64,000 bases of DNA, taken from NCBI GenBank assembly GCA_004764695.1, contig SMSO01000032.1, forward strand, positions 3,002,501 through 3,066,500, written 5' to 3'. Source of the stretch: Schizochytrium sp. TIO01 (lineage: Eukaryota; Sar; Bigyra; Thraustochytrida; Thraustochytriidae). The position numbers and the translations under genes are program-made. Below, one piece after another: positions 34,405 to 54,579 of this stretch (position 1 is its first letter; the number at the start of each line of letters is the position of its first letter). The notes under the pieces were generated by a model that worked only from the letters and a program-made list of their open reading frames with translations, searched no databases and was not told the DNA's origin.

Positions 34405-35747
34405 TTTTTAGACAAAGCTCTCTTCTCGAATAAGCTATCATTTTTCGCCTCTGGGAAAGTTATTTTTCTCCAAACTGACCTTCAAAGGGACTCTCTCATG
34501 CGCCTTACTAAGTCTCAGAACGAACAACTTTATATCACAGTCTTCAATTTGTCAAAATATTGTTTCAACCTCGTGTGGTTTTATCCAAGATGAGTAAAGT
34601 ACCTCGCCGGACGGAGGAAAGAAAAATTGCTTGCCTCTTCTTTGAAGCTTTGACTGGTGGAATTTAATCTATCTAACAACTCACTTTAATCGAGATCGAA
34701 CGGCTGGTACAAACTATTTGTTTGAGGCTAACGTCACTCTTTAAGTAGAACAATTGCATCGTGGGTTAATTGGTCAACATGACAACCTTGGCTGGAAGCC
34801 GGAACACCCAACATCTATTCGGTCAATAGAATTGTGTTCGATTATGGGTCGACCCAGAACAGATGGGTTTTACAGAGTGTACAGCTCTAAATCGATCCCT
34901 TTGATATTAAAATCCTCGACTTGAGATTACTTATCAGTGCTATTGTAATGCTGGCTTGTATGTCTCGTTATTACCAAGTAAGGTATATAAAACTTCATTT
35001 GGCCTTACATGCATTTCCACGCTTAGTCTCATTAAGTCTCTGATGTCTGGCTAGCCAAACTTTGAATTCACCTCTCTGCTAATAGTGGGGGGAAGAGATG
35101 GTTCTGTTTAAATTGTAAAATTGGCTTCTAAAAGTTTGAAGTGCATCAAGGGCATTTATACAACGTGCGAATAGTTAGATGCCCAAGGTTAATACCTACC
35201 TCAACCTTGTCACACAAAACTTAAACGTACCATCGCTTTCCTGATTGAGGCAATAGAGAAACCTCTTGAAGTCAACACTGCTTACACTATCATTGCATTT
35301 CAGTAGACTAGACAGTTCTCCATGTTCGTGTATGTGTTCTTCAAAGATTTCGATATCTCTTGTTTAACCTGGTCTTCACTCTCGCATTTTCTTAATTCAA
35401 TTTCTTGTGAACAAGCCATCGTATGTTTTTTTATGAAGAATGAGATAGTCATGACAAGCACGAAGATTCGAACAGCATTTCATCATATTCTATGCAAAGA
35501 ACGCATTTATAACCTCAGTTCCTTTCTTGGGCCACCTACATCTGTGTTTTTGTTTTTTCTACTTTTTTCTTTTCTTTTTTTTCAAAATAAATAAATAAGA
35601 ATAATATAATAAAATAGGTGTTTTCCTTTGGCTTTTTGCAAGTTAACCATCGCTCAGACATCTTGTAATAATCCAGTTTAGCGTGCCCTCGCAAAAATCA
35701 TATGCAATCTGATACGGAAAGGATACGCACGCAAGTTGCCTGCGCCA
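34405..35747. other. Intergenic region upstream of the ZRANB3-like gene
   Basis: 1.3 kb with no supported gene. A short frame at 35322-35594 runs into T-rich simple sequence and is not called. An AATAAATAAATAAG run follows at about 35586. Confidence 0.6.
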
Positions 35748-38700
35748 ATGGCCCATTGTAAAGATACAGAAGACGAATCATGGCTTGATACCTTTGACTG
35801 GGCTGAGCTTGAGCGGAAAGCACTAGAAAAGAGGGAATCGCGAACTGCTGCTGCTGCTTCTTCGCCTATCTCCTCTGCTGTGGAACATGGACTTGCAAAG
35901 GGTTACGACAGCTATCGACAACACGGTGAAGGAAAAAGATTTTCTGATAAGGGACACAAACAATGCTTTGAGTCATCTCAAACCAGTCACGAGAGCCTGC
36001 TGAAAGAGGACTCATCCCAGTCTACCTTGAGTGAGACTGGCTTACAAGATGAGCGTCATTATAACCATGACTTCATAAACAGGGACGGTTCTAATGCAAA
36101 GCTTGACTTTCAAAATGCTTGCGTTGTACACCCTTTTAGTAAAAGAGTCCAAGGCTCCCGTCGAAAGGGAGAACGCGAAATCGGTCCAAGAGGAAGGACT
36201 TCATCACCAATTCCTTTCTCTCTGGAAGTTCTCTCTGGGAGCTCTGGCCAATCAGCAACATATCAGATCGACGATACTTTGCATAGAACCAGCAATGAGA
36301 CGTTTCAAGGAATAACTAATCTTGTCGAGAGCAAACAATATACTTCCGGAGCGAGCAAAAGTGCGGCATCGTCTGGTGCGAAGTTACATGATGGGACCGT
36401 CGTCAGCAGAGTCGAAGATGATTCATTTCAAACTGCTACTAAGTTACCACACTGCGAACACGAGCAACAAAAAGAACCATGTCGTTCAATCACTTGTTGT
36501 AACTCAATTTCTTTTCAGAGCGATGATTTGGAGCGATACAAAGGAGTAGACATTAGCAATCGTGTAGACCCTAAATGTGGAGTTGCGCCACCTTATAATG
36601 GAGAGCCAAACCGTACAGGATTGAGTCGTCAGGATGCACTGCCAAAAAGGATACAAGTGACAAACCCCAAGGAAAAAACTAACACAAACCAAGTGGATAA
36701 GAATACCACAAATATAAACCCAGATAAAAAAGCAGGCACCGCCCAGTTAGACCCTGGCACGTCCAAAAGCTTCTACAAACCCGTCGAAAACTCAAGTATG
36801 GGTGTTCACAATAATTTGCCACATCAATCTGCGGTTTCAAATTTTACATCAATGCTTGAAGAGCATAAGCCCCATGCATTTTATCCCAACCGAACTTCTC
36901 CAACGAAAAAGCGCCTTGAGCAAGTAAGGGATTCCCTTTTCAATTGGTTGGCCTTGAACCAGTCCCAAGAAAATAAAGAAAATAACTCACCACAAACGAA
37001 TAGCCATGCCTATGACAATGGTGTGATCAAGTCCACTCAGCACATGACAGCGCATGTCGAAGGCCCTTCTTACTACGGACCGGGTGTTCCAAATGACAGA
37101 GGCAGTGCTGTGAATACAAACCCTCCAGCCCCTGCCCAACGCATCTTGGGCTTACCTGCAGTATCCTCAAAACCCGGGTTGTTGGCTTCTAAAGCTGTTA
37201 TGAGTGGTGGTGGTGATGGTGGCCAAGGAAAGATTGATCCAAAGACTATTCATCTCCCATCGCGAGCGCCACCCTGGGGCTGCTCGCTTTCGCAGTTACA
37301 TAATCTTGAAAGTTTTCGCCAAGAGTCTTCGACCCCGCGTAATACATCTCTAAACAAAACTGCAAAGCCAAACTTTAAGGCCGTTGCCTTATCATCGCTG
37401 GTCTCGGATACTTGTGTTGAGGGAGATGCATTTGAGTTATTTTGCACATCTTGTTTGAGTTGTATAGATGATAAAACCTCCCGAAACTACGGAGAGCTCA
37501 AACAGTTGCTCTTAATGGGCCGACGCCACCTTAAGCCGTTTCAGAAGGCAGGTATTCTTCGTATGCTAAATGGTCCTAAGCGAGCGCTTTTGTATGATGA
37601 AATGGGCCTTGGTAAAACCCTGCAGTCACTTTTTTGTCTTGCTGTAACCTGCCTTCGCGATGCATGCTGGCCCGCTCTAATTGTATGCCCTGCTGCTCTA
37701 CGCCTTAATTGGATCGAGGAGATCGAGCGGTGGTTGCCTTTTTTTGACATTGAGGATATTGCTGTAGTAAAGAATGGTCGTTCCAGTCTTTCAGAAAATG
37801 CGCGAATTATTGTTGTTAGCTATAGAATGCTAGAAGATGTAAGCAAAGAGCTTCTTCGCAGGAAAGTTCATTTCATGATTGCGGATGAGGTCCACAAAAC
37901 GCGTTCGTTTGATTCAATTCAGGCTCGCACGCTTGCTCTAGTATCACGTAATGTTAGCCGTTCAATTCTTGCTACTGGTACCCCAATGCTTGTCCGGCCA
38001 TTCGAACTCTACACCCAACTTGCGATTGTTCTCAGCGAGAAAGATAAGAATCATCTTATGGCTCGATGGGGATGGCGTGCATGTATGCGTTCCTCTGATG
38101 AAGCTTATTTGCAAGAATCTCATCTTGCCCAGATATTTGCAAAGCCTATGCGTCATTTACGTGATATAACATTTTTTATGCGCACAAGAGAAGCGGCTTG
38201 GATGCAGCCCTGTACTGTAGCGTTCATGAATGGCGCTTCGAACCCTTCAGCGCGCTTGTATTGGGATGAGCTTACAACAAACAACCAGCGTGCTGAAATT
38301 CTTCGCGTTCTTCATGAGTTCCTGTCAGATTTGCAAACTATGATCTACAGTGCATTCGCAGACTCTGGTGGTGCATCTAAAAAACAAGTTCGCGCAGTCG
38401 TTAGTAAACTCAGCCAAATCGTCAATAATTGTTCTACTCATGATAGAGTGGGTCGAATGACCAACCCTGCTCCTTTTTCAGAAATGTTAGCTCTTCTTCA
38501 ATCCTTCAACAGGTTCTGGTATACGATTCGTTCTGCGTTTCAAGATAACGATTTTTTGCAGGCAATTGTACATATGTGGGATGCTCACTGTTTCGGAATA
38601 ATGTATTGTTCAGGGCAACGCCAGCCTCAGCGGCATCAACAATGGACTCGTCGCATGTGGCGTTATCCAAGTGCAAATGCAAATACCATGGCCAACCTTC

Positions 38701-41318
38701 GCGCATTAATGGAACCTTACGTAACGCGCCGCCGTAAGCAACACGTCTTGCATGATCTCCCTGCAAAACACCGACAACTTGTGTATGTCTCATCCTCGTT
38801 TTCTTCACTCAAACACGTTGTTCCAGACAATACTGAGAAGAAAAATCGGGGTGTTAATGCTGCTATGGAGGAACGCGAACAAGGCGATGCACATATGCCT
38901 CGTTCACAGCAGTTCCGTGAAAGTCTCGCTGCTTGTTCTTTAGCTCGTCATGGCCGACAAGAACAAATTACGTGGGAACTGCAGTGTCTAGGTATCGCTA
39001 AGGCGCCTTTTGTAGCAGACTATGCCCTGGAGTTGTTGCAAGAGCTAGATCCCAGTGATCGTATTTTAATTTTCGGACGGCATATTAAAGTTTTGAACTG
39101 TATACAGTCTCGACTTCTTATTGCCCGTGGAAACGATCCCTCGCACCAGCGATTTCAGCAGTATCATAGCGAGGTTCTTAGTGGCTGTGTTCCTGTGATC
39201 GAAAGAGATAGGATAATTAGAAGCTTCCAAACTGATGAAAAGAATGGTCCTCGCGTCTTACTCTTGTCTATTGAAGCGATGGGTGTTGGTGTAACACTAA
39301 CGCGGGCGTCAATCGTGCTAATGGCTGAGCTCCATTGGTCTCCTCAACTTTTACTGCAAGCTGAAGACCGTGCACATCGGATCGGTTGTAGGGATTCTGT
39401 TTCGGTACAATATATTCTCGCAGAGAAGACTCTCGACGAGAACCTTTGGCCGATGTTAGCAGCAAGACTTTCTGTTATAGAGAGTACATTAAAGGATAAT
39501 GAAACTGGTCACCAGAGTAAAAGCAAGCGGTCACGAAAAGGTCGTGCGATAAATCCAGCCTTGCGCCGCAAAGTTTTTGCTGTAGAGTCGCGTAGAGGTC
39601 GTTCAGTGGCTGTTGCAAAATTGGTAGAGGACCGGCGCAAGGAATTGGAGGCTCATAAGGAGGGCACAATACAATTGACAACAAATCAGAAGTCGGCATC
39701 ATCTCCAGAGAGGATGAAAAAAAAATATTGTTCGCAAGCCAGGGATATGTCTCAAGAAAGTAGTTCTTCAGACACTGTATCTTTAAACGACGAAAAGGTT
39801 ATCCTTGGATTTCGAATCTCTTGTACAGGAAGGGTACATTTATACTGGGGAACACCAAGCGCGGGTTCAGAGCCACCGAAGTTTGTACCTGCTGGATCAA
39901 ACCTCTCTGTTGCGGACTTGCGACTTGTAGGCGAAGCGTGGCTGAAACAAGTAGATGGCCAACTTAACCATACACGAACAGAATTAAAGCTTTTGATTCA
40001 GCGCCTTCCTATCGTTATGCGTGACCCTTCATCTCCTGTCTTTTTGCAAGCACAAGCTTTTGTTGAGGAGTGGCACAGCCTTAGTATTACATTGCAAAAC
40101 AGTTTGCAATCTCTAGAAAGGCCCTTGATGGTACCCCTTTCTGAGGAGCTGCGGCACCGAAGCGCGACCGCTCGCCGCAATGCAGATCAAGACATTATAT
40201 CTTTCGATCGGGACTCATCTCCAACTTTTCAGCTACATCGCGCTGCATTGAGGACTCTCGGCCCTGACCGTTATGGAGTCGGAATTGTTTCGTTTAAGAA
40301 GCATTGTGTTCATAACCAGCAAGGGTTCACCACTGAACAGCGTGCCCTACCGCAGGCCTTTGAAATAACCTCAGGTTCCCCATTATGTTTATACTGCGGC
40401 TGTATTTACCAAGCAAATCATCGGTTTGAGCCTATAATCTCAAGTGTTGGATCTTGCCGAGAGGATGCACTAGAAAAAGCCGCAGCTGAAGATATGTATG
40501 ATAGGTATGATCGAGATGGTGAAGATAGTGATAGCGATGCCCAAGACACCGTGAATGATGACGCATTAAGCCAAGTAAACTCAAACACCCTGACCTCAGA
40601 AGGCAAGCGTAGGTCGTCACAGTGCGTCACCTTAGATGACAGTGTTCAGGCACTATTTTGTGGCGGAAATGCACCATGTTATCGATCATGGCAGATGAAA
40701 TGCTACCGCTCACAAGCCCGGATTCAGCTCTCGGAAATGGACGCGGGCATATGTCGCAAGTGCAAGGTCGATACAAAATCAATGTTCTATCGAGCGCGAG
40801 TCCATCCTCCAGGCTCAAAAGAACGCGAGCAAGCTCTATTCTGCAATAGTGACGATCTGTTATGTCGCCACAAAGTTGCTCGGCACCAAAGTTCCAATGC
40901 AGAGGCAAGAATACATTGGAGTAATCTACAGCGCCAGCTACTTGGTAAAACTGTGGAGGAAAAGCTTTTAACACAGCCTCTCTCGGAGGGGTTGTTTTGG
41001 GAGGCCGATCATATTCTTGCTGTGCGACTTGGTGGAGGTAGCGCTTCTCTATCAAATTTTCAAACTCTATGCAAGCCGTGCCATCTTGCCAAAACCCAAA
41101 ATGATTGTTCAGCTATCCGGAAACTTAAACGTGAACAAGCTAAACACATGCAACGTGCTACTGAAATCATGCGCGAACAGTTTACTTTTCTTGGTAATGC
41201 AAGGACGCATACAGGACTTATTTGTGAATGGTGTGGATTTAAATGTGGGTCAGTTGAGAACCGGATTATGCATGATATCATCTGTCCCTTAAAACCAGAT
41301 TCGACACTTGCAAATTGA
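35748..41318 (+). CDS. ZRANB3: ZRANB3-type SNF2 annealing helicase with C-terminal HNH nuclease
   Basis: Single-exon protein of 1856 aa; first in-frame ATG at 35748. Residues 1-595 are Ser/Asn/Lys-rich and probably disordered. The SNF2 ATPase has LKPFQKAGI, Walker A YDEMGLGKT near 616, DEVH near 711 and TGTP near 743. An enlarged linker contains YVTRRRKQHVLHDLPAKHRQ. The helicase-C lobe has RILIFGRHIKVL near 1104, GVGVTLTRA and QAEDRAHRIG near 1204. Then come Cys clusters: CLYCGC near 1548, FCGGNAPCYRSWQ near 1638 and GVC-x-LC-like GICRKCK near 1667. The HNH nuclease has WEADHILAVRLGGG near 1751 and LCKPCH near 1774. ZRANB3 remodels stalled replication forks and cuts D-loops or fork substrates. 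An extra C-terminal Cys/His finger (CEWCGFKC, HDIIC) closes the protein. I find no W-x-C-x2-C NZF ubiquitin-binding finger, which human ZRANB3 has. Confidence 0.85.
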   Translation: MAHCKDTEDESWLDTFDWAELERKALEKRESRTAAAASSPISSAVEHGLAKGYDSYRQHGEGKRFSDKGHKQCFESSQTSHESLLKEDSSQSTLSETGLQDERHYNHDFINRDGSNAKLDFQNACVVHPFSKRVQGSRRKGEREIGPRGRTSSPIPFSLEVLSGSSGQSATYQIDDTLHRTSNETFQGITNLVESKQYTSGASKSAASSGAKLHDGTVVSRVEDDSFQTATKLPHCEHEQQKEPCRSITCCNSISFQSDDLERYKGVDISNRVDPKCGVAPPYNGEPNRTGLSRQDALPKRIQVTNPKEKTNTNQVDKNTTNINPDKKAGTAQLDPGTSKSFYKPVENSSMGVHNNLPHQSAVSNFTSMLEEHKPHAFYPNRTSPTKKRLEQVRDSLFNWLALNQSQENKENNSPQTNSHAYDNGVIKSTQHMTAHVEGPSYYGPGVPNDRGSAVNTNPPAPAQRILGLPAVSSKPGLLASKAVMSGGGDGGQGKIDPKTIHLPSRAPPWGCSLSQLHNLESFRQESSTPRNTSLNKTAKPNFKAVALSSLVSDTCVEGDAFELFCTSCLSCIDDKTSRNYGELKQLLLMGRRHLKPFQKAGILRMLNGPKRALLYDEMGLGKTLQSLFCLAVTCLRDACWPALIVCPAALRLNWIEEIERWLPFFDIEDIAVVKNGRSSLSENARIIVVSYRMLEDVSKELLRRKVHFMIADEVHKTRSFDSIQARTLALVSRNVSRSILATGTPMLVRPFELYTQLAIVLSEKDKNHLMARWGWRACMRSSDEAYLQESHLAQIFAKPMRHLRDITFFMRTREAAWMQPCTVAFMNGASNPSARLYWDELTTNNQRAEILRVLHEFLSDLQTMIYSAFADSGGASKKQVRAVVSKLSQIVNNCSTHDRVGRMTNPAPFSEMLALLQSFNRFWYTIRSAFQDNDFLQAIVHMWDAHCFGIMYCSGQRQPQRHQQWTRRMWRYPSANANTMANLRALMEPYVTRRRKQHVLHDLPAKHRQLVYVSSSFSSLKHVVPDNTEKKNRGVNAAMEEREQGDAHMPRSQQFRESLAACSLARHGRQEQITWELQCLGIAKAPFVADYALELLQELDPSDRILIFGRHIKVLNCIQSRLLIARGNDPSHQRFQQYHSEVLSGCVPVIERDRIIRSFQTDEKNGPRVLLLSIEAMGVGVTLTRASIVLMAELHWSPQLLLQAEDRAHRIGCRDSVSVQYILAEKTLDENLWPMLAARLSVIESTLKDNETGHQSKSKRSRKGRAINPALRRKVFAVESRRGRSVAVAKLVEDRRKELEAHKEGTIQLTTNQKSASSPERMKKKYCSQARDMSQESSSSDTVSLNDEKVILGFRISCTGRVHLYWGTPSAGSEPPKFVPAGSNLSVADLRLVGEAWLKQVDGQLNHTRTELKLLIQRLPIVMRDPSSPVFLQAQAFVEEWHSLSITLQNSLQSLERPLMVPLSEELRHRSATARRNADQDIISFDRDSSPTFQLHRAALRTLGPDRYGVGIVSFKKHCVHNQQGFTTEQRALPQAFEITSGSPLCLYCGCIYQANHRFEPIISSVGSCREDALEKAAAEDMYDRYDRDGEDSDSDAQDTVNDDALSQVNSNTLTSEGKRRSSQCVTLDDSVQALFCGGNAPCYRSWQMKCYRSQARIQLSEMDAGICRKCKVDTKSMFYRARVHPPGSKEREQALFCNSDDLLCRHKVARHQSSNAEARIHWSNLQRQLLGKTVEEKLLTQPLSEGLFWEADHILAVRLGGGSASLSNFQTLCKPCHLAKTQNDCSAIRKLKREQAKHMQRATEIMREQFTFLGNARTHTGLICEWCGFKCGSVENRIMHDIICPLKPDSTLAN

Positions 41319-42471
41319 CCCATAATCAAAGCACGGACGAAAAACTAGGTAATCTCCCAGAAGAAGAATTGTTACTTCTGCTTTCCAAACTGAAATATAA
41401 AAATGTTACAAGAATCTGTCGTTGCCCATCAATGACTGAATTTGCAGAAACTTTATTATCTAATGTAGCGTTATTTCATTGATGCTTATTCGAATTTCGC
41501 TGCAAAGTTGTCTAGTCTCTCAGGATTGCTGGGTGTAAAAGGTTCTGACATGCATGTATATTACACAGAGTTTGGAATCCCGGCAATCTTGGTAGTATCG
41601 TCTCTTTTTATACCAGACCCCATTCACCCTAATTCCAGAGATTGCCCAATATAGAGAGACTTAAGAAAGAGGCAATAAAGATCGATTTTTTTCTCAAAGA
41701 TACATTTTATTCTCTTGGTACCTACGTACCATCTAAGTAAGAAAAGTAACTAAATCAATCATACGTTTAAAGTGACCCAAAATCATGACACTTTCAAGAA
41801 CTGACTTACATTGCTCTAGTAGTCATAAACTAATTTAACGTTCTGCTACCATCTTATACCTGAAGGACACATGAAAGATAGACGAGTGACTGCTGAATTT
41901 GAAATGTTGATTTTATTTAGGCCAGTACAGATATATATATTTATTTCTAATTTTATTCGTTTTAAAATATTTAAATTTTTGTTTATAAAAAAAAGAAAAA
42001 AAAGACTAATTGATATGTATATATATATTTATATTTTAAATTTAAATTAATTTTTAATATATATAAATTACAATAAAAGTACAAAATACATATAAACATA
42101 TGTAGGCCTTATCGTAATAATCTAATTTAAATGATGACTACCCTACTTGTATTGTAAATATATCCGTTGTAAAATGGGTTGCGCATACTACCGTTGAAAT
42201 ATTAGTATCTAAGAATGTTTTCCCTGAAACAATCAGGAGTATGCCTCATTCATCTTTTTTGAAAGGAGCCAAATATAGGCTATATAGCACGCTTTCGTGC
42301 TGTCTTTAAAAAAGCTGTCTCTTACTGACAACACTAACTTACATTACGAGGCTTCGTCTCAGGGCACAACAGTGTAGAAGCATTCCCAACTCCTGAGCAA
42401 GGGAAACAAGTAGAAGCAAACTGGGTCGCGAGATTTAGTCTGGGAGGGTGGCTTGCGAAACCTCTGCAAAC
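41319..42471. other. Intergenic region, extreme AT block
   Basis: 1.15 kb with no supported gene. 41930-42110 is almost pure A/T with TATATA runs. The end holds the presumed promoter of the MYCBPAP-like gene. Confidence 0.65.
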
Positions 42472-45400
42472 ATGGCAGAGTTGCCTAGCGCAACAGAGTC
42501 TAAAAGTTTCTGTGCGACAACAGCTCCGCCTGATGTAGCTCGCAATTTGCATGCCTTTCATAGTGCTGATGGGAAGGCCAAACAAGGCAGGCTCGAGGAG
42601 TCAAATGACAATATGACGTTTCCTATGCGTCCTGGTAAGAAGCGCATTCTTGTTCGGGTCAGTGGTGATGCTCGTGGAGAATCATCAGCTAGCCCAATCC
42701 ACACGCATAATTTGTCAACGGAGCCTGGACCAGGACGAGGGGCTCAAAACCCTAGGGAAGGGCTCAATAAGAAGAAGCTTTTTGTAGCAAAAACGGTTGA
42801 CATGCAGCAGGTTGTGGTAAATAACCAGAGCGTATCTCCGCAAGGAAAAGCAGATCTCAAAACTGTCTATGAGACACCTTTAGGAAAATGCACTACATCT
42901 CCGACCTTTTCACAAAGCGCAGAACTTGATGCACACCAGACCATACAACATTTTAGTTCGTTTGATCCTGTTTGTAGCTCTGGACCGCGCTATGATTCTC
43001 GAGGAAAGGTAATCGCATACTCTATTCTTGGAGATGTCGAAGATTTCATGCGACTTACACGCTCCAAAAGTGGAAACTCTTCCGGTGCGCTAAGCAGGTC
43101 TCCATCGCGAATATCGCGGCGTAGCTCACGTCGTGCCAGTGCAAGATTTGAGCAGATGCGTACCAATCGTAGCCAGAGTTTTTCCCCAAGTACACACAAC
43201 TCAGATGTCATGGCGATGGAATCTCTTACTGGGTCCATTGAACTTGGGTATGGTCCCGGAACTGCACAAACTCCACTTCATCCAACCTCCCCTGCTGGGC
43301 GTCAGGCATACTTAGAACAGGTCCGTCAACTTGCCGCGGAAGAGACTCGTATCAGAGCTCAGGCAAGTCGCACTCGCGAGGAAGTTGAGCGTAAACGAAA
43401 GGAAGCTGGCATGCTAACCCATGAGCGACTGCTGTCGCAGAGGCAAGAGAGAGCGCTTGCTGCACATGGAGAGTGGCAGCGAGAGTGGGGACGTTTTAAA
43501 GAAGCAATGTGCCAACTATCCGGAAAAGACATTGATGATCTTGTGATCTCAAGAGCAGATGCTTACAGAGAGCGGATGGAAGAGTATAATTACATCAGCG
43601 AGGCGACACCCCATCATGAGAAACATGGTTCGGAATATTGGAAGATGAGTCTTCGAGGTATGGGCACACGCTATGTTGCCGTTGGCAATATCTTCAGTGG
43701 ACTATTCTGTCCTGTGAATGAAACGTCTAAAAACGAACTTCAAATGATTAGAATACCACGACTTGCTTACCAAAGTCACGAAAGCCACGACCACTCAGTG
43801 AAACCATCATGGCGTGACTCACCAGTTCTTCAACGCACGCAACGAAGCCTTGCAGCGAACTTAAGACGTCTTCGACCGCATCGAGTTTCGCACAATAATG
43901 CTGACGCTCTTGTCATTCGCGGAGAGCCTCTACTCGAATGGGCGTACGTTAGTATGGAAACCGAGGCTTTGGATGAGGCAGCTCAAATCGCAAACCCCAA
44001 CGCAAACTTAGGATCTAGTGACGAGGGCCTGATGCTTGAGCATAATTCATTAGCAACTTTTCAAACAAATTCAAGAATTCAAGATGGTACAGGTTCCACT
44101 CATGGCCCAGACTGCAGTCTTCTTCATGCATCGGCTGTTCAGAAACCGGAGAGTATTGTTGGCTCAACGCCAAGTCACCAAGCAAACTGGGCATTATCAT
44201 TTTCCACGGAGCAGAATAAAATTTCTACAATTTCTGTCAGCATCCAGAACTCGGGCTCAACAGTTCTATTTTTTAACTGGCATCAGCTTGATACAATCCC
44301 AGGACTTCCGGACGACGTATCAGCTGTATTCTACTGCTCTCATCCCGACGGCGTTGTTTTACCCCGACAGCAACTTAGTATTGTCTTTAGTTTCAAAAGC
44401 GCACTTCCAGGTGCATGGAAGCAAATCTGGGTGCTTAGGACAACCCCCAAGACCTGCAAGGCAGAGAGTCTTGTGTTAGAACTTCGTGCTGTATGCAATC
44501 ACGTTGATCAAAGTCGTACTCAGCGACTTCTTGCCCTTGCTGATTTGGAGGTCAAAGGTCGAAAATTGGAACATGAAGTCCAAGAAAGGCTTGCTAACAA
44601 GCTCGCAATGGAAAATCAAGAACTCGCTCAACAAGATGCAGAGTATGGGCTCAGTCAAGAAGAACTTGTGATTTTGCGCCGCTTACGCTTTGAGAGAGCA
44701 AACCGTGCCCTGGGTCTATACTATCATCCAGAACTTGAGGAAGATATCATGAAGCTTGCCTTTAAGGTATTTTCTCAACTATATGCCTTCGATATGGTAT
44801 CTTCCTCTTCGGATAGAACCAGTGAAATTGGCAACAAGGTGCTTAGTGCATTGAAGTCATGGAAGCAAGAACCGTCACTAGTAACGCTTCGGGCAGCAGT
44901 GGCCCGAATCGAAGCTGGAGAACCTCTTCGTCCCAAATGTAGAGCTGCAACTATTACCAGTGACGACGAGGAAAATATTGAAAACTCGAGTGGAATAAAA
45001 GAAATTAAAATGGACACCTCAAAGATGATTGAGACTTTAGTTAACAATGACAACACCAACCGTACTGTAGCAACTGAGAGTCATGATGAAGACCAAGAGC
45101 GTACAAAGAGTACTCAGCCAAGTCCAGAAGATTTAATTAATGAGAGCTGTAGTTCTGAACTGGGTGACCCCACAGCACCAGCTCCTGAACCTGAAAGCGG
45201 TGTGAGTGTCTCATTTGAATCAACTACTATTGAACCTTTGCCGCTGAATGGCACAGAGCAAATGGAGAATTGTGGCGGTGATGATGAAGCTACAGAGACT
45301 ATTGACTATATTCTCCTCGAACACGAACGCCTTGCTAGAACTGCAGAACGACTAGCCTCAGAGATACAAACCATTGGAGATTGTATGATTATGCCACCCT

Positions 45401-47766
45401 TGAGGGACACACCCGCTTGGGAGCGGGGAAGGGAGACAATTTTTGCAATGGCAGATGCAATTGTTGACCAAGTAGATACATGGCGAGAGTCTCATCCGGA
45501 TCCTGACGATGTCGGGCCAATCCTAGGCACGGAAGATGACAAGATTGATCCTGGTGAAACATTGTACGGCCGTTCTACCCAAGCACTTTTGAAGGTTGTC
45601 GACGACTTCATTAATAATGTTGAAGAAGATGCGAATTCACTACGTCAAGAGGCAGTACATAAAATCATGAGAAGTATGGATATAGAATCTATTAGGTTAC
45701 TGAGTAAAATTGACCCGCAAGGCCTGGGCCTTGCGGGTTGCCGTATACTAATAACCTGTGATCTTTTCATTCGCGCTAGTGAAGGGGATACAAATGTTCC
45801 AGATGAAATAGATGCAGACATCAAGCTTCGAAGTTTGTGCAAAACTATTGAATGTCTCATCCAGACAGGTTGTTCTTGTATTTTACTTTCCGACGCCAAC
45901 GAACCTGGGTCAGAGGAGCAGAGAGCATCGCTTGCGAGTATTTCGGAAGAGCTTTCAACTCGCTTAGGGCGCGAAGTAAATTTCATTGCTGACGTTTGCG
46001 ATGAAGAAAGCCGCGTACTTCTTGGTATTGGAAAGGGTCAAGCTGAAAGCATAGATGGTGAAAATGATGAAAATGATGACGATGAAGAAAGTGATAGTGA
46101 TTCAAAGAGTGACGAAGGAAAGAATGACGAAAATCAAGATCAGCATAGTGAAACGACTGATAGAAAGCGATTGGACCCAGACGATATCACAGTGGTGCTT
46201 TTACAGTCCCATCCAAACCAGAAACCCTCAGCTAACTCTGGAGAAATTATCGAGCAGTATGTTGACGTAGTTGTTCATGATTGCATTTCTGGTATGGAAA
46301 ACTCTATAGCAATGCTACCTTTTCTGAAAAACGTCCCTGAACACTATGCCGGTTTTGGTCTCGAGAACGAGGTCAGTATCGTTCGTTGCACTCTAGAAAA
46401 ACAGTTAATAGTTATTATTGGAGGCGAACCAAATGAGTACCCAAAGCAAACAAAGATTAATTGTTCGACTTCAGACACTGAGAGTAGGTTAAGTGGGCGA
46501 AGTACTGGTGAAAAAGATGAAGGTGAAGATGAAGAGGAAGATGAAGAGGAAGATGAAGATGAAGATGAAGATGAAGATGAGAGCGAGGACAAGAGTGCAC
46601 GCGAAGGAAAGCAAGGAACCGGACAAAACGAAAAGGTCTCAACACAGGATATAGTTGAAGGCAAAGAAATAAATGCCGAAAACGACCCATCCACCCAGTC
46701 AGGTAGCGGCAATGAATCGATTGATTCTAACGACAAGGCTGACAAAGATCACGACGACGAAGATCTCAAAAGCATATCTTCAGAAGGGTCAGCGTCAATC
46801 TCTTCTTCTTCTTCTTCTTCTTCGTCTTCGGGCTCCTCCGATTTCTCATCCGTTAGCGAGGATAGTCTCAAAATTAACCCTTTGAATGCAGGGTTTTTGC
46901 CACAACTTCGGATGCTGAAAGGTATGGTAAAAAGTCAAATTGTGTCTGCCCTTCTCATTGTAGGTGAGCTTGGAAATTTGTTCCGCACTGCTCTTGCGGA
47001 TCTAGGACAAGTAGCAGAGATTCGACTTTTACGGAATTTGGAAGGTGTATACGAACCACTCATCATTCCCTCAAATCAAGATCTGGCGCGAATACTCGAA
47101 GAAAACGTTACAAGTGAAACGTTGATTAATATTTCCCAGCGTGAACTTGAACTGGCACGCCAGATCCTCGAAGAAGCTCGTAGACGTCATATTATGGTCA
47201 AGTTATTCACATCAAAAGAACCTCGTGAGGCGAAAATCCAGCTTTCAGAGTTTGTGAAGCGTTCAGATACGAGTTGTAACCTTGTTGTGCTTGCAGAGGC
47301 TCCCCATGAGTATGCCACACGACATCTTTTACGTCAATTCGGAGAATCAGGTACATCCGTTTTTCTTGGTATTCCAGGTGCTTGGACGCAACTTGAAATT
47401 TTAAAGTCTGGATCCCATGACGACGAGACTCTCGAAGAAGAGATGGACGAAGAGGACCGTGCGGACGTCGAGGATGTGGATGACAATTCGCAGGGTCACG
47501 ATGTAGACGGAGCAGAAGAACAAGATGAGACAGAGGACCCTCCAGCAAGTTCTGGTGAGATCAAAAGCCCTAGAGATGGGGTCGACTATCAGGGCGAAGA
47601 AACGGATGACCCTTTCCACCTTCAATTAATGAAGATTGTACCTTGGACTCGATTTATGCAAGGAATCTTTGCGCTGGAGCCACTTAATCCACCAGTGGGA
47701 CTGCTGCTACCGAGTACAGCTGAAGATAAATTGGCTCCTAATGACACAGCAGCAACAACAACTTAA
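42472..47766 (+). CDS. MYCBPAP: MYCBPAP-like central-apparatus protein fused to a degenerate PGK-like region
   Basis: Single-exon protein of 1764 aa; first in-frame ATG at 42472 (MAELPSATESK). Residues about 1-280 are Ser/Arg-rich; 280-345 form a charged coiled coil (EETRIRAQASRTREEVERK). Residues about 443-700 match the MYCBPAP family: a beta-sandwich with ISVSIQNSGSTVLFFNW, YCSHPDGVVLPRQQLSIVFS and LELRAVCNHVDQSRTQRLLA. MYCBPAP (AMAP-1) binds MYCBP/AMY-1 and is a component of the ciliary central apparatus. Residues about 1076-1592 follow phosphoglycerate kinase in order: GLAGCRILITCD, LCKTIECLIQTGCSCILLSD, VVVHDCISGMENSIAM, YAGFGLENEVSIVR, QLIVIIGGEP, ALLIVGELGNLFRTAL and ELELARQILEEARRRHIMVK. 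The catalytic PGK motifs (RVDFN, LSHLGRP, NDAFGTAH) are lost. Two Asp/Glu/Ser-rich inserts (about 1190-1225, 1343-1466) interrupt it. A structural pseudo-enzyme is inferred. Confidence 0.75.
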   Translation: MAELPSATESKSFCATTAPPDVARNLHAFHSADGKAKQGRLEESNDNMTFPMRPGKKRILVRVSGDARGESSASPIHTHNLSTEPGPGRGAQNPREGLNKKKLFVAKTVDMQQVVVNNQSVSPQGKADLKTVYETPLGKCTTSPTFSQSAELDAHQTIQHFSSFDPVCSSGPRYDSRGKVIAYSILGDVEDFMRLTRSKSGNSSGALSRSPSRISRRSSRRASARFEQMRTNRSQSFSPSTHNSDVMAMESLTGSIELGYGPGTAQTPLHPTSPAGRQAYLEQVRQLAAEETRIRAQASRTREEVERKRKEAGMLTHERLLSQRQERALAAHGEWQREWGRFKEAMCQLSGKDIDDLVISRADAYRERMEEYNYISEATPHHEKHGSEYWKMSLRGMGTRYVAVGNIFSGLFCPVNETSKNELQMIRIPRLAYQSHESHDHSVKPSWRDSPVLQRTQRSLAANLRRLRPHRVSHNNADALVIRGEPLLEWAYVSMETEALDEAAQIANPNANLGSSDEGLMLEHNSLATFQTNSRIQDGTGSTHGPDCSLLHASAVQKPESIVGSTPSHQANWALSFSTEQNKISTISVSIQNSGSTVLFFNWHQLDTIPGLPDDVSAVFYCSHPDGVVLPRQQLSIVFSFKSALPGAWKQIWVLRTTPKTCKAESLVLELRAVCNHVDQSRTQRLLALADLEVKGRKLEHEVQERLANKLAMENQELAQQDAEYGLSQEELVILRRLRFERANRALGLYYHPELEEDIMKLAFKVFSQLYAFDMVSSSSDRTSEIGNKVLSALKSWKQEPSLVTLRAAVARIEAGEPLRPKCRAATITSDDEENIENSSGIKEIKMDTSKMIETLVNNDNTNRTVATESHDEDQERTKSTQPSPEDLINESCSSELGDPTAPAPEPESGVSVSFESTTIEPLPLNGTEQMENCGGDDEATETIDYILLEHERLARTAERLASEIQTIGDCMIMPPLRDTPAWERGRETIFAMADAIVDQVDTWRESHPDPDDVGPILGTEDDKIDPGETLYGRSTQALLKVVDDFINNVEEDANSLRQEAVHKIMRSMDIESIRLLSKIDPQGLGLAGCRILITCDLFIRASEGDTNVPDEIDADIKLRSLCKTIECLIQTGCSCILLSDANEPGSEEQRASLASISEELSTRLGREVNFIADVCDEESRVLLGIGKGQAESIDGENDENDDDEESDSDSKSDEGKNDENQDQHSETTDRKRLDPDDITVVLLQSHPNQKPSANSGEIIEQYVDVVVHDCISGMENSIAMLPFLKNVPEHYAGFGLENEVSIVRCTLEKQLIVIIGGEPNEYPKQTKINCSTSDTESRLSGRSTGEKDEGEDEEEDEEEDEDEDEDEDESEDKSAREGKQGTGQNEKVSTQDIVEGKEINAENDPSTQSGSGNESIDSNDKADKDHDDEDLKSISSEGSASISSSSSSSSSSGSSDFSSVSEDSLKINPLNAGFLPQLRMLKGMVKSQIVSALLIVGELGNLFRTALADLGQVAEIRLLRNLEGVYEPLIIPSNQDLARILEENVTSETLINISQRELELARQILEEARRRHIMVKLFTSKEPREAKIQLSEFVKRSDTSCNLVVLAEAPHEYATRHLLRQFGESGTSVFLGIPGAWTQLEILKSGSHDDETLEEEMDEEDRADVEDVDDNSQGHDVDGAEEQDETEDPPASSGEIKSPRDGVDYQGEETDDPFHLQLMKIVPWTRFMQGIFALEPLNPPVGLLLPSTAEDKLAPNDTAATTT
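45713..45738. repeat. Perfect 12-bp inverted repeat inside the MYCBPAP-like CDS
   Basis: ACCCGCAAGGCC at 45713-45724 and its exact reverse complement at 45727-45738 are separated by two bases. It lies in coding sequence (DPQGLGLAG) at the start of the PGK-like part. It could form a strong RNA hairpin; no function is known. Confidence 0.8.
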
Positions 47767-49317: not shown

Positions 49318-52300
49318 ATGTCTGAGATTGCAAACTCTAGTGAAGAGAACCAAGAGGAAATTTCAACAAGGCCTCTGGGAGAAACTTCAGTGACTAAGAC
49401 ATCTACTTCTTTGTCAAATGTTCATGTCACAAGCGAAAACCTCAGTCTGCTTGCAAGTCTTGTTCCAGCTAGTGTGATTCGTTATCATCTTGAAAAGAAA
49501 GGCGAAAATCGACTTGCATCATTTTCAGAAGAATATGAAGGTGCAGTGCTCTTTGCAGATATTTCAGGTTTTTCAAGTCTAGCTGAGAAGCTTGCTAAGG
49601 ATCTCAATTGTGCAGCAAATGCTGCAGAGAGTCTCTCTTCTTATATTGGGCAATCTTTGGAAAAGATGGTGCTAGAGGTCTGCTCTAAAGGAGGCGATGT
49701 TATCAAGTTTGCTGGTGATGCAATCCTCACTGTTTTTCCTGCTTCTAAGTTTGCAAATCTTAATGAAGCCACTCTATGTTGTGTGCAGGTAGGCCTTAAT
49801 TTACTGAAGCTTGACTTAAAAGCTGGTGGTGTGCAGCTTTCTGTTCATTGCGGTGTTGGAGCTGGAAAGGTCATTAGTTATCATGTCGGTGGACGCTTTG
49901 ATCGCTGGGAGTATGTAATCACTGGAGATCCAATTGAACAAATCGGATCTGCAGAACCAGAAGCCTCGGCGGGCGAGGTGGTGATTGCCAAAGCAGCATA
50001 CCACCCAATCGCTGGACAATGCAAGGGCGCTGCTCTTCCAAGTGGTAACTTCCGTGTTGATAAGCTTTTGGATTGTCCAGAACTCATCACATTTCCACTT
50101 ATTTCAACCGAACTACAACCCTTGGCGCAAGAGCCAAATGAGATGCTTCGCATGCAAACATGTCTTCGGAGCTATGTACCAAGACCAGTTTTGCAAGCTC
50201 TTGATGCAGGACAGAGCCTTTGGTTTTCAGAGCTGCGTTTGTGTTCTACGCTTTTCTGCCGACTGAAAGGTCTACAATTCAAATCAACACAAAATCTCGA
50301 CCTCATCCATCGGGCTGTTTGCACAGTACAGAAACACGTTTATGCATATGAAGGAACCTTGTGTCGTTTCATTGTCGATGATAAAGGTGCTGGTTTGCTA
50401 CTCGCCTTTGGCTTACCTCCTTTTATGCATGAAAATGATCCTATCCGAGCAACCAAATCAGCAATGGACATCTGCACTGGAGTTTCGGACCTAATAAATG
50501 ATGATGGTGAGCCCTTAAGCGCATCTATTGGTGTGACGAGCGGCAGAGTGTTCTGTGGTACAACAGGTGGACGAGTGAGGTGCGAATATACCATGCACGG
50601 TACTCTTGTAAATTTAGCCGCAAGATATATGGTAGCCGCCAAAACAGGAGTCCTATGCGGTCAGACAACCTATCGGGAGGCTTGTCAACAAATTGAATTT
50701 GGGGAACCTGAAAAGTTGAAAGTAAAAGGCAAAGAAGAAGAAGTTCTTGTTTATCGACCCTTAGGCTCAAAGATGCAGATGGGATTCGATATGACCAAAA
50801 CCGACACACCACTACTTGGACGTAAACTAGAAATTGATGCAATGGTGGAAGCTATTCGTCGCTTAACAATACAAGCTGATCTGAGTGAAGTAATTATTTT
50901 CACTGGCGACGCTGGAATTGGCAAGTCAAGACTCATGGAGAAAGGCTACAGTTTAGCCAAAAAACACAAATGCAGTGTACTCTACGGCAAAGGCTTAGAT
51001 ACAGAAAGCGCTACAGTATTTTACTTATTTCGAGGAATATTCTCACAGCTGATTGATTTGTACTTCACTAAGGTCATCCAATACAAGTATAAGATATGGG
51101 TGCAAATATCAAATCAAGGAGCTTTTGAAGGCATTGCTTCAACTTTCTCACACTCTTTTAGCGAACATCTTTTCACAAAGTATCTCACCAAAGCGTTTTT
51201 TGAAAAACTCGACAATATTTGTCGACCGGATCCTGATGATGAATCGGATGATGTTGACAACGGCGAAGCGACTGCTTCTGCAGATTTCCTCAAGTACATG
51301 GGGCTCACAGAAAACCCATCGGCTACAACTGCCTTGCCTTCTCGCAATGTCGAAGTAACCGTTCCGCCTTTGGAATCACTTCCAGAATCAATTCGTCTTT
51401 GTGTTGTTCGAGACATGATCCCAGTTGGCAAGGACAACCTTGAGGAAATGTACCCCTTGCTGAACATATTTATCCCCAAGATTGTTCAGAGCTCTGATAC
51501 AGAAGCAACAGCAAAAATGAGGAAAGAAGTAAGGGCTGAAAACCGAGTTCGACTTATCAAAGAAATCTTTTCTAAGGTTACAGAAGAACTTGAGGCCATA
51601 CAGGTCCTCCACGAAGACGTTGCCCAGCAACTAGGACGTCAAGACAAGGCTATGATTAGACTAGGTGTTCAGATTACAGAACCAGCGCGTTCAAGGAGTT
51701 CCCAATCGTCTGTTGGCTCAAATCTTGCACGTGGACTTTCCGCAACAAAGCCAGAGAAAGAGATATCCTCGCGTAAACGCCGCGGAAGGAACTTAAAACA
51801 GTCTCGTTCCGACGATGGGGAGGATTCAACTTCATCCCTTGGTATTGTCAAGGAGGGGCTAGTGCCAAAAAGTCCTGAACCACAATCACCTGAGACACCA
51901 ATAAGCAATGCATCGTCGCACCAAATGCATAGTAGCTATAAGATGCGTATAGGTGGAAACCAAAGATTGACACAACGTCATGATCGTCTTGTACTTTTAG
52001 TAGAGGACTGCCAGTTTGTGGATCCATTGTCGCTTCGCTTATTACAAGATATTGCAATGAGTGTTAAACCAATGCTGATCATGCTTTCACTTCGATCACT
52101 CATATTCATAGAAGATGACCTCATTTTGGAAAGTTTTCGACATGTAGAGGTGGGAAATCTTAGTCGAGAAGAAATTCGCGAGGGTATGTGCAAATGGTTG
52201 CAGGTGAAAGAAGTTCCAGATAAGGCTCTGAGTGCTGTGATGGAGAAATCATATGGACATCCACTATTCTCGGAAGAGCTCACAAAGTTGATGGTTGCTG

Positions 52301-54579
52301 AGGGGATGATATTGGTCGATGGTTCAACAGCAAAATTGTCAAATAAGGCTCAAAACGGTACCTTCGGATTGCCTGACACGGTCTCTGCTCTTATGACAAG
52401 TAAACTTGATCGTCTTAAACCATCACAGCAGTTGACGCTAAAAGTTGCTGCTGTGATCGGCGCAGAATTTCAGAGAAATGAATTAGCTGCACTGATGCCA
52501 ATTACAGTAGGAGACCGTTCTGAATCCGGGCATTTGAGCGAGGATGCTGATCAATTATCTGATGACATAAGTGCCTTGGTGGCACAGGGTTTGTTAAGTC
52601 GAGATCCATTAATGATGTACCATTATAGATTTACGAATGCAATGCTCCGAGAAAGTGCATATAATCTACTACTGTATCAGAACCGGAAGGATCTGCATCA
52701 GAAACTTGCTGAATATCAAGAAGCTCGTAACAAGGACTACCTAGAACCTGTATACTTTCTTTTAGCTACGCATTATTATCTTGCAGAAGAATACGCAAAA
52801 GCTATTGAATACTCAGAACTGGCAGGGAAAACTGCTTTGGAAGCTCATGCAATGCAGCAAGTGCTAGTCTGCTTCTCTCGCCTTATTGAGATGGACCTGC
52901 ATGTGCCAGAGGTTACTGTAGAAATTCCACTAGTTCGCAAGATTGGTTGGAAACGCCGTGTTGGTGAAGCTCTTCTTTCACTAGGCAAAGTCAACGATGC
53001 GGAGGAGTATTTTTTTGCCGCACTGGAGGACGCTAATCTCTACTCTGGACTCGGACCTGGATTGGACGATGGTTCTTGCTTTGACTTCTTCAGACGAAAT
53101 CCTAAGCTGCAACTCGTGAAAAATACTCTAGCTTTCCAAGAGCTTATCAAGAACCGGGATATAACTTTGTTATTAGAGGCATCTACAACATATGAGCTTC
53201 TATCACAAATTAACCACGATCGCACAACAAACTCCGCTCTAGAATATCGCCTTAACGCTCTTGATCTTGCACGTGCAGCAGAAAATTTCATTCGAGAATC
53301 TGAGAATATCGATACAGAACTCCTGGAAAGCGCAACAGCGCGACTTGCACGAACATACGCTTACGTTGCCGTTTTCTATGTTTGTGTAGGTTCACCCGCA
53401 ATGCTCGATTTAGCACGTGATCACATTCAAACTGCTACTCTGCTGATCGATACGACTGGCAAAGTAGAAGATTCTGTAACACAGACCTTAGTCAGGTATA
53501 AATCTGCAAAATTTGCACTTATGGTGGGAGAACTAAAGCAAGCAAGTGACAGGGTGCGGAAAGCTTTATGGATGTGCAAGTTCTTGAATTTTGAACGAAT
53601 GATGTTGGATTGTCATACTTTGTCACTCGCAATCCAACTCTTCATGGGTCGGTTAGCTAACGCGAAGCGACTTTTAGAATCAACTGTAGCCGACATGTCG
53701 CAGGCTGCACCGAACTATGTAATTCTTGCCATTGCAGCTCGTACTGCATGCCTTGCAGGAGACTTTAAATTAGCTGAGTCTTGCCTTGAGCGTATTGGAC
53801 GAATGAACTTAGGGCAGTTCAGCTCCGGGCCTGTTGCAGCTAGCAAGAAGTTGATGATGTATGCTAATCCAGAAATTCACATTGCATTGGCTCTCCTTCT
53901 ATCCAGGAAATATGGAAAGCAGGATATTGCGGCTACAGCTGCAATAAGGGGGATAGAGGCCTTGCAGAGCGAAGATCTAACAGACCTGAGTATTACTAAG
54001 TTCCACACAGCCGCCTTTCTACTTACAGCGCTTGCTGAAGGATTGAGTGGAATTCCTCTTTTGAAGACACGAGCACGGGCGCGAAAGTATCATGAATCAC
54101 AACGTATGAGCTTGTCTCAAATTATCCCTTTTGAAGACTTGGAAATCAAAGACTCAGTCAGACATATCCGTAGACAGGCGAAGCTTCACCTGAAGCGAGT
54201 CATGTCACTTTTGCGAAAGTATGTCTCAGCATACTCGGTGTGCCAGCCTCATGTGACGTATTGCAGTGGCTTATACCAGAAAATTTTGCGCGGCTCATCA
54301 AGAAACAAAACTATGAAGACCTTTTTGCAGGCTGCAGATGAGGCTTCAGCGATGGATTGTTTCTTTATCAAGGGTCTGGCCTTGTTCGAGGCTGGCCTCA
54401 TTGACCCACAGCACTGGGTTGGTGCACGCGCAGCTCTCTTGGCTTGTGGAGATGTCAAAACGGCCGCTTCCACATTATCTTCAAAGGAAGAGTTCTCGAA
54501 TATAAAGGATCTGAGCCGAGAAAATCTTATGGACGCACCTTACGAGCTAAACCTAATTGAACTTCCCGCAACAGAATGA
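49318..54579 (+). CDS. ADCY10: Soluble adenylyl cyclase (ADCY10-type)
   Basis: Single-exon protein of 1753 aa from the ATG at 49318. It makes cAMP from ATP and, in animals, is activated by bicarbonate and calcium and acts in flagella. The first class III cyclase domain (about 70-225) has FADISGF with the metal-binding Asp and GGDVIKFAGDAIL with the second Asp. The second domain (about 305-460) has RFIVDDKGAGLLLAFG and YTMHGTLVNLAARYM. A NACHT/AAA-like ATPase follows with Walker A GDAGIGKS near 531 and Walker B LVLLVEDCQF near 892. A TPR-like helical C-terminus runs to residue 1753. A basic/Ser-rich insert of about 150 residues (about 727-880) separates Walker A and B, explaining part of the extra length over human ADCY10 (about 1610 aa). 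AATAAA lies about 10 bases after the stop. Both cyclase domains keep their key residues, so activity is likely. Confidence 0.9.
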   Translation: MSEIANSSEENQEEISTRPLGETSVTKTSTSLSNVHVTSENLSLLASLVPASVIRYHLEKKGENRLASFSEEYEGAVLFADISGFSSLAEKLAKDLNCAANAAESLSSYIGQSLEKMVLEVCSKGGDVIKFAGDAILTVFPASKFANLNEATLCCVQVGLNLLKLDLKAGGVQLSVHCGVGAGKVISYHVGGRFDRWEYVITGDPIEQIGSAEPEASAGEVVIAKAAYHPIAGQCKGAALPSGNFRVDKLLDCPELITFPLISTELQPLAQEPNEMLRMQTCLRSYVPRPVLQALDAGQSLWFSELRLCSTLFCRLKGLQFKSTQNLDLIHRAVCTVQKHVYAYEGTLCRFIVDDKGAGLLLAFGLPPFMHENDPIRATKSAMDICTGVSDLINDDGEPLSASIGVTSGRVFCGTTGGRVRCEYTMHGTLVNLAARYMVAAKTGVLCGQTTYREACQQIEFGEPEKLKVKGKEEEVLVYRPLGSKMQMGFDMTKTDTPLLGRKLEIDAMVEAIRRLTIQADLSEVIIFTGDAGIGKSRLMEKGYSLAKKHKCSVLYGKGLDTESATVFYLFRGIFSQLIDLYFTKVIQYKYKIWVQISNQGAFEGIASTFSHSFSEHLFTKYLTKAFFEKLDNICRPDPDDESDDVDNGEATASADFLKYMGLTENPSATTALPSRNVEVTVPPLESLPESIRLCVVRDMIPVGKDNLEEMYPLLNIFIPKIVQSSDTEATAKMRKEVRAENRVRLIKEIFSKVTEELEAIQVLHEDVAQQLGRQDKAMIRLGVQITEPARSRSSQSSVGSNLARGLSATKPEKEISSRKRRGRNLKQSRSDDGEDSTSSLGIVKEGLVPKSPEPQSPETPISNASSHQMHSSYKMRIGGNQRLTQRHDRLVLLVEDCQFVDPLSLRLLQDIAMSVKPMLIMLSLRSLIFIEDDLILESFRHVEVGNLSREEIREGMCKWLQVKEVPDKALSAVMEKSYGHPLFSEELTKLMVAEGMILVDGSTAKLSNKAQNGTFGLPDTVSALMTSKLDRLKPSQQLTLKVAAVIGAEFQRNELAALMPITVGDRSESGHLSEDADQLSDDISALVAQGLLSRDPLMMYHYRFTNAMLRESAYNLLLYQNRKDLHQKLAEYQEARNKDYLEPVYFLLATHYYLAEEYAKAIEYSELAGKTALEAHAMQQVLVCFSRLIEMDLHVPEVTVEIPLVRKIGWKRRVGEALLSLGKVNDAEEYFFAALEDANLYSGLGPGLDDGSCFDFFRRNPKLQLVKNTLAFQELIKNRDITLLLEASTTYELLSQINHDRTTNSALEYRLNALDLARAAENFIRESENIDTELLESATARLARTYAYVAVFYVCVGSPAMLDLARDHIQTATLLIDTTGKVEDSVTQTLVRYKSAKFALMVGELKQASDRVRKALWMCKFLNFERMMLDCHTLSLAIQLFMGRLANAKRLLESTVADMSQAAPNYVILAIAARTACLAGDFKLAESCLERIGRMNLGQFSSGPVAASKKLMMYANPEIHIALALLLSRKYGKQDIAATAAIRGIEALQSEDLTDLSITKFHTAAFLLTALAEGLSGIPLLKTRARARKYHESQRMSLSQIIPFEDLEIKDSVRHIRRQAKLHLKRVMSLLRKYVSAYSVCQPHVTYCSGLYQKILRGSSRNKTMKTFLQAADEASAMDCFFIKGLALFEAGLIDPQHWVGARAALLACGDVKTAASTLSSKEEFSNIKDLSRENLMDAPYELNLIELPATE

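Follow-up and report, generated by a model that had tools for sequence, protein, structure and literature searches.

A thraustochytrid MYCBPAP protein with a degenerate, phosphoglycerate kinase-derived C-terminal module, predicted to belong to the C2a arm of the ciliary central apparatus

The ciliate Tetrahymena thermophila is reported to encode, besides a canonical phosphoglycerate kinase (PGK), a multidomain PGK that includes a MYCBPAP sequence (TTHERM_00856750) and for which nuclear or metabolic roles were suggested (Rojas-Pirela et al. 2020, PMC7729029). A PGK-like protein of T. brucei, PGKL (Tb927.11.2380), is described as axoneme-bound and probably inactive (Brown et al. 2014, PMC4106842; PMC7729029). 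The Chlamydomonas MYCBPAP protein, FAP147, has been placed on C2 of the central apparatus (PMC7999657), where it is described as the rachis of the C2a arm that reaches through the C2 wall, in an arm that also contains FAP65, FAP70 and one unassigned protein (PMC9113940); in the mouse C2a arm, MYCBPAP, CCDC108/CFAP65 and CFAP70 are reported to depend on one another (PMC13345628). Here, we describe a gene in a 64,000-nucleotide stretch (the window) of contig SMSO01000032.1 of the thraustochytrid Schizochytrium sp. TIO01, in which a MYCBPAP domain and a PGK-derived domain share one open frame. We put the probability at roughly two in three that it is a MYCBPAP/FAP147 ortholog, a predicted C2a rachis of the central apparatus, with an inactive PGK-derived C-terminal module.

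Both domains were detected by Pfam above their cut-offs, as an earlier sequence-only reading of this DNA had proposed. The MYCBPAP domain (PF14646) occupies residues 332–770 (E = 1.8e-34; score 119.9 bits, cut-off 24.5; profile positions 2–435 of 439), and the protein matches the PDB sequences of Chlamydomonas FAP147 (7n61/7som, E = 2.7e-9) and of a MYCBP-associated protein (9ijj, E = 9.9e-7). About 340 residues beyond the end of this domain, the PGK profile (PF00162) matches residues 1114–1327 (E = 2.3e-11; score 43.8 bits, cut-off 27), covering only profile positions 16–191 of 379. Residues are numbered here from the first codon of the open frame at position 42448 of the window; those of the sequence-only reading are lower by 8. 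The frame (42448–47766, + strand) comprises 1772 codons without an internal stop and is preceded by a stop codon four codons upstream of 42448. Its first ATG is at 42472 (residue 9), where the sequence-only reading had also set the start, and its stop codon is at 47764–47766. The features of the gene, all on the + strand, are as follows.

42472..47766, + strand: MYCBPAP-PGK-like fusion gene, 1764 residues, one open frame from first ATG to stop
42472..43440, + strand: basic N-terminal region, residues 9–331, computed pI 9.89
43441..44757, + strand: MYCBPAP domain (PF14646), residues 332–770, by Pfam and PDB matches to FAP147/MYCBPAP chains
44758..45684, + strand: acidic linker, residues 771–1079, by composition
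45685..46431, + strand: PGK N-lobe-like domain with a degenerate substrate site, residues 1080–1328, by profile matches, alignments and model
46057..46167, + strand: acidic spacer 1, within the N-lobe, residues 1204–1240, 46% D+E, by composition
46432..46872, + strand: acidic and Ser-rich spacer 2, between N-lobe and C-half, residues 1329–1475, 32% D+E and 23% S, by composition
46873..47412, + strand: alpha/beta C-half, candidate PGK C-lobe, residues 1476–1655, by model and scores, with no WNGP or GGGD motif
47413..47604, + strand: acidic spacer 3, residues 1656–1719, 44% D+E, by composition
47605..47763, + strand: C-terminal tail, perhaps equivalent to the terminal helix of PGK, in a low-confidence part of the model

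The PGK ancestry of the N-lobe-like domain is supported by several lines of comparison. When the whole genome (64.06 Mb, 37 contigs) was searched with PF00162, three places were found: the fusion gene, above cut-off at E = 1.5e-8, and two full-length canonical PGKs (E = 7.9e-150 and 3.4e-147). Eight PGKs among the PDB sequences were matched by the fusion protein at E up to 1. Scored end to end with the acidic spacer omitted, the N-lobe stands at z = 11.8 against 300 shuffled sequences, none of which scored as high, and residues 1080–1328 align throughout when PGKs with short loops serve as partners. Of the 53 columns in which 20 bacterial PGKs show at least 95% constancy, the domain keeps 17, and it is identical to one of the canonical PGKs of the same genome (that of C31) at 44 of 209 aligned positions, a count in which the spacer region is partly misaligned. 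A search of residues 1080–1655 against the organism's own genome gave 11 matches at E ≤ 1 including the query itself; one was the other canonical PGK (C24; 28% over query positions 5–122, E = 6.2e-4), and the remaining nine (E = 6.6e-4 to 0.33) fall mostly on the acidic spacer, as judged by position alone.

The sequence-only reading had followed PGK motif by motif through the entire C-terminal half, a claim that holds for the N-lobe. All seven of the motifs that it quoted are in the protein: GLAGCRILITCD, CSCILLSD, VVVHDCISGM and YAGFGLENEV lie at the PGK positions assigned to them, as does QLIVIIGGEP up to its GG, but the two C-lobe motifs, LLIVGELGNLF and ELARQILEEARR, are not clearly above chance.

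The loss of catalytic residues that had been proposed from the sequence is borne out for most of the substrate-binding residues. The substrate site of PGK is described as a basic patch of His62, Arg65, Arg122 and Arg170 together with Asp23/Asn25 (PMC7729029), and we added Arg38, which corresponds to Arg39 of T. brucei (PMC4106842). In our alignments with PGKs, Asp23 is kept, whereas Asn25 is replaced by Phe, Arg38 by Lys, His62 by Asp, Arg65 by Glu and Arg170 by Asn; Arg122 corresponds to Glu in one alignment and to a gap in another, and the GGAK motif reads GGEP. The number 38 and the motif given to each PGK residue number are taken here as our assumption. An alternative hidden Markov model (HMM) pairing sets TNVP, nine residues past the first strand, against the FNVP of PGK and would also keep Asn25, but this pairing, too, leaves no His62, Arg65 or Arg170. 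The GGGD and WNGP motifs, which both canonical PGKs of the genome possess, are absent from residues 1080–1772. Because the basic substrate patch is gone and only 17 of 53 near-constant residues are left, PGK catalysis by the fusion protein is predicted to be very unlikely.

The central-apparatus context proposed for the MYCBPAP half fits the rest of the genome as well as the FAP147/MYCBPAP matches. The genome search with PF14646 found a single place, so that the fusion gene is the sole MYCBPAP match. The profile is not wholly specific, as the CFAP65 of this genome scores 24.6 bits with no single stretch significant by itself. CFAP65, the one C2a partner that the search covered, is encoded, its best PDB match being FAP65 (E = 2.1e-143) and its sequence carrying several CFAP65-specific Pfam domains. 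As Ig domains of the CFAP65/HYDIN type also occur in further frames of the genome, the length of one being 4851 amino acids, and CH_2 domains are encoded as well, the organism looks equipped for motile cilia.

If the gene is such an ortholog, its MYCBPAP half would dock the protein on C2 in the manner of the Chlamydomonas and mouse proteins, a location predicted from homology. The PGK-derived half would no longer make ATP and may instead serve the C2a arm as a module that binds proteins or ligands or adds mass. Its acidic spacers give it a strong negative charge, computed at about −93 at pH 7.2 for residues 1080–1772, and it would act by binding or as charged bulk. Probably, an active PGK was tethered to C2a through the fusion and decayed afterwards.

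Several observations weigh against this reading, most of them concerning the C-half. Its score against the PGK C-lobe was equaled or exceeded by 12 of 500 shuffles and by 19 of 327 fragments of real proteins, and with the GGEP strand removed by 24 of 500 and 38 of 331, respectively; judged by sequence scores, the C-half does not clearly stand out from controls as a PGK C-lobe. Fold prediction had been suggested as a check in the sequence-only reading. Folded alone, the C-half reached a predicted local distance difference test score (pLDDT) of 40.3, and no PGK was among its best 50 matches in two structure searches. A model of the whole PGK-like region (mean pLDDT 50.9, predicted template modeling score 0.46) does match PGK; since 20 PGK N-lobe rows were part of its input, this agreement depends in part on the sequence similarity already described. 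Furthermore, the product and its location are predicted from DNA sequence, and MYCBPAP could function elsewhere as well.

These results bear most directly on the alternative that survives best, namely that only the N-lobe of PGK was captured or has survived and that the C-half is an unrelated alpha/beta domain; the protein would therefore never have had, or would no longer have, the nucleotide lobe of PGK. The profile matches stop at the GG strand (PF00162 at 191 of 379, a second HMM at 204 of 405), the C-half scores within the range of controls, and no WNGP or GGGD motif is found. However, the predicted order of helices and strands in the C-half is, by eye, compatible with the PGK C-lobe, and some structure matches of the low-confidence whole-region model span both lobes, over up to 288 residues at a root-mean-square deviation of 6.3. 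A whole PGK fold in the C-terminal part is plausible. We regard an unrelated C-half as unlikely, though deserving of serious weight.

A location in the nucleus and a role in gene regulation, as suggested for the Tetrahymena protein by way of a Myc link (PMC7729029), appear improbable: MYCBPAP/FAP147 is described as a C2a component in Chlamydomonas (PMC9113940) and mouse (PMC13345628), and the C2a partner CFAP65 is encoded in the same genome. Still less probable is a PGK-like domain that remains active, as a PGK or on another substrate, and feeds ATP locally to the axoneme. The Chlamydomonas central apparatus does contain enolase and nucleotide kinase domains (PMC9113940), and the authors who reported the Tetrahymena fusion discuss it as a PGK that has gained functions (PMC7729029), but here the basic patch is lost or charge-reversed, GGEP stands for GGAK, and GGGD and WNGP are missing.

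The long acidic inserts noted in the sequence-only reading are confirmed as three D+E-rich spacers within or beside the PGK-like region, all of them open in frame, and the linker that precedes this region (query 44758–45702) has no match among PDB sequences at E up to 10. Disordered acidic loops are the simplest reading of these stretches. That they are instead unspliced introns, or that two adjacent genes were joined by an assembly error, is scarcely credible: a scan for donors of the form GT(A/G)AG, the only form covered, found one site around spacer 3, and the gene is known from DNA only, but the same scan found no site around spacers 1 and 2, the 1772 codons are free of stops, and Tetrahymena has the same domain pair.

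The sequence-only reading had taken the fusion to be undescribed, which is not the case: as the Tetrahymena fusion (PMC7729029) and T. brucei PGKL (PMC4106842) are published, neither the fusion nor a dead axonemal PGK is new. Compared by its published description, the Tetrahymena protein likewise combines MYCBPAP and PGK in an organism with a canonical PGK, but its authors propose nuclear or metabolic roles for it, not the C2a arm (PMC7729029); the present gene, which is from another genome, no longer has the substrate patch and contains acidic spacers. PGKL is similarly PGK-derived and predicted to be dead, and is axonemal, while the axonemal place of the present protein is a prediction. In PGKL, however, the PGK domain is N-terminal, and behind it come a cyclic-nucleotide-binding-like domain, then an HTH-like region and predicted membrane helices; its descriptions (PMC4106842, PMC7729029) mention no MYCBPAP domain. 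A Pfam scan of the fusion protein at E up to 1 returned MYCBPAP, PGK and a sub-threshold CFAP65 Ig domain only, and thus no cyclic-nucleotide-binding-like domain as in PGKL. The FAP147/MYCBPAP chains of Chlamydomonas and a second species (7n61, 7som, 9ijj) share the MYCBPAP domain but are 976 and 932 residues long, and the PGK-like half has no match to them at E up to 10.

Enolase, FAP42 and CPC1 show that metabolic enzyme domains occur on a central-pair projection, although they belong to C1b, not C2a, and are described without a MYCBPAP fusion (PMC9113940). The enolase invoked in the sequence-only reading is thus present in the central apparatus, but, as FAP147/MYCBPAP is on C2a, not on the same projection. 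An account of Tetrahymena C1b mentions enolase, pyruvate kinase and Cfap174 (MYCBP), not MYCBPAP-PGK (PMC8175508). Among the matches listed in our searches of open-licence papers, none ties a MYCBPAP-PGK fusion to C2a, and none reports such a fusion beyond Tetrahymena. The novelty of the link is tempered by a report that already puts homologs of a protein list including MYCBPAP, in Chlamydomonas and in Tetrahymena, on central-apparatus projections, with PGK unnamed (PMC12979858). What is new here is the occurrence of the fusion in another genome, evidently of a second lineage, the loss of the substrate patch and, as far as the papers searched go, a proposed tie between the fusion and C2a. When viral contigs were scanned with the complete protein, there were 33 pattern matches and no confirmed relatives, and a PGK profile found no protein with a ciliary name among the best 60 of 62 matches to PDB sequences.

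Several further genes were observed. Of the canonical PGKs, that at C31:6273399-6274598 and downstream has, by eye, a Ser/Thr-rich extension and a terminal hydrophobic stretch followed by KRKN, resembling a tail anchor, and that at C24:2071202-2072392 has, likewise by eye, a leader resembling a mitochondrial presequence, in line with the mitochondrial late glycolysis reported for stramenopiles (PMC7729029). Two triosephosphate isomerase (TIM) frames (C30:1756457-1757185 and C31:3434053-3434781; 281 and 267 amino acids) show no GAPDH fused in frame, unless behind an intron. The TIM-GAPDH fusion is a stramenopile trait. A PfaA-type polyunsaturated fatty acid synthase, a mark of thraustochytrids, lies at C4:608161-617209 in open frames of 1031 and 2172 amino acids with repeated matches in the mid-region. 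This synthase and the leader of the C24 PGK fit a thraustochytrid host, whereas the unfused TIM frames lend that assignment no help. Next to the fusion gene in the window, the frame at 49318–54579 (+, 1753 residues) contains two nucleotide-cyclase stretches, along with AAA, NACHT and TPR matches below threshold, and 35736–41318 (+) encodes an SNF2 helicase with a C-terminal HNH nuclease motif, which we take to resemble ZRANB3.

Since a ciliate is likewise reported to have a MYCBPAP-PGK fusion, the one in this thraustochytrid host may be older than the divergence of stramenopiles from alveolates, its common origin with TTHERM_00856750 being putative. We tentatively suggest, at less than even odds, that it is an ancient C2a feature of at least ciliates and thraustochytrid-type protists. 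On this view, PGK would have sat on C2 of an ancestral central apparatus, with enzymes of late glycolysis on C1b next to it, and would have decayed, at least here, to a pseudo-enzyme in parallel to trypanosome PGKL. If the domain is on C2a, it would be the second case, after PGKL, of a glycolytic enzyme built into the axoneme that has lost its activity, and the Tetrahymena MYCBPAP-PGK, for which nuclear or metabolic roles have been considered until now, would be tied to a known arm of the central pair. With a degenerate version in another genome, what was a brief notice on Tetrahymena becomes a question about PGK at the C2a arm and local glycolysis in cilia that can be tested by setting the two versions side by side.
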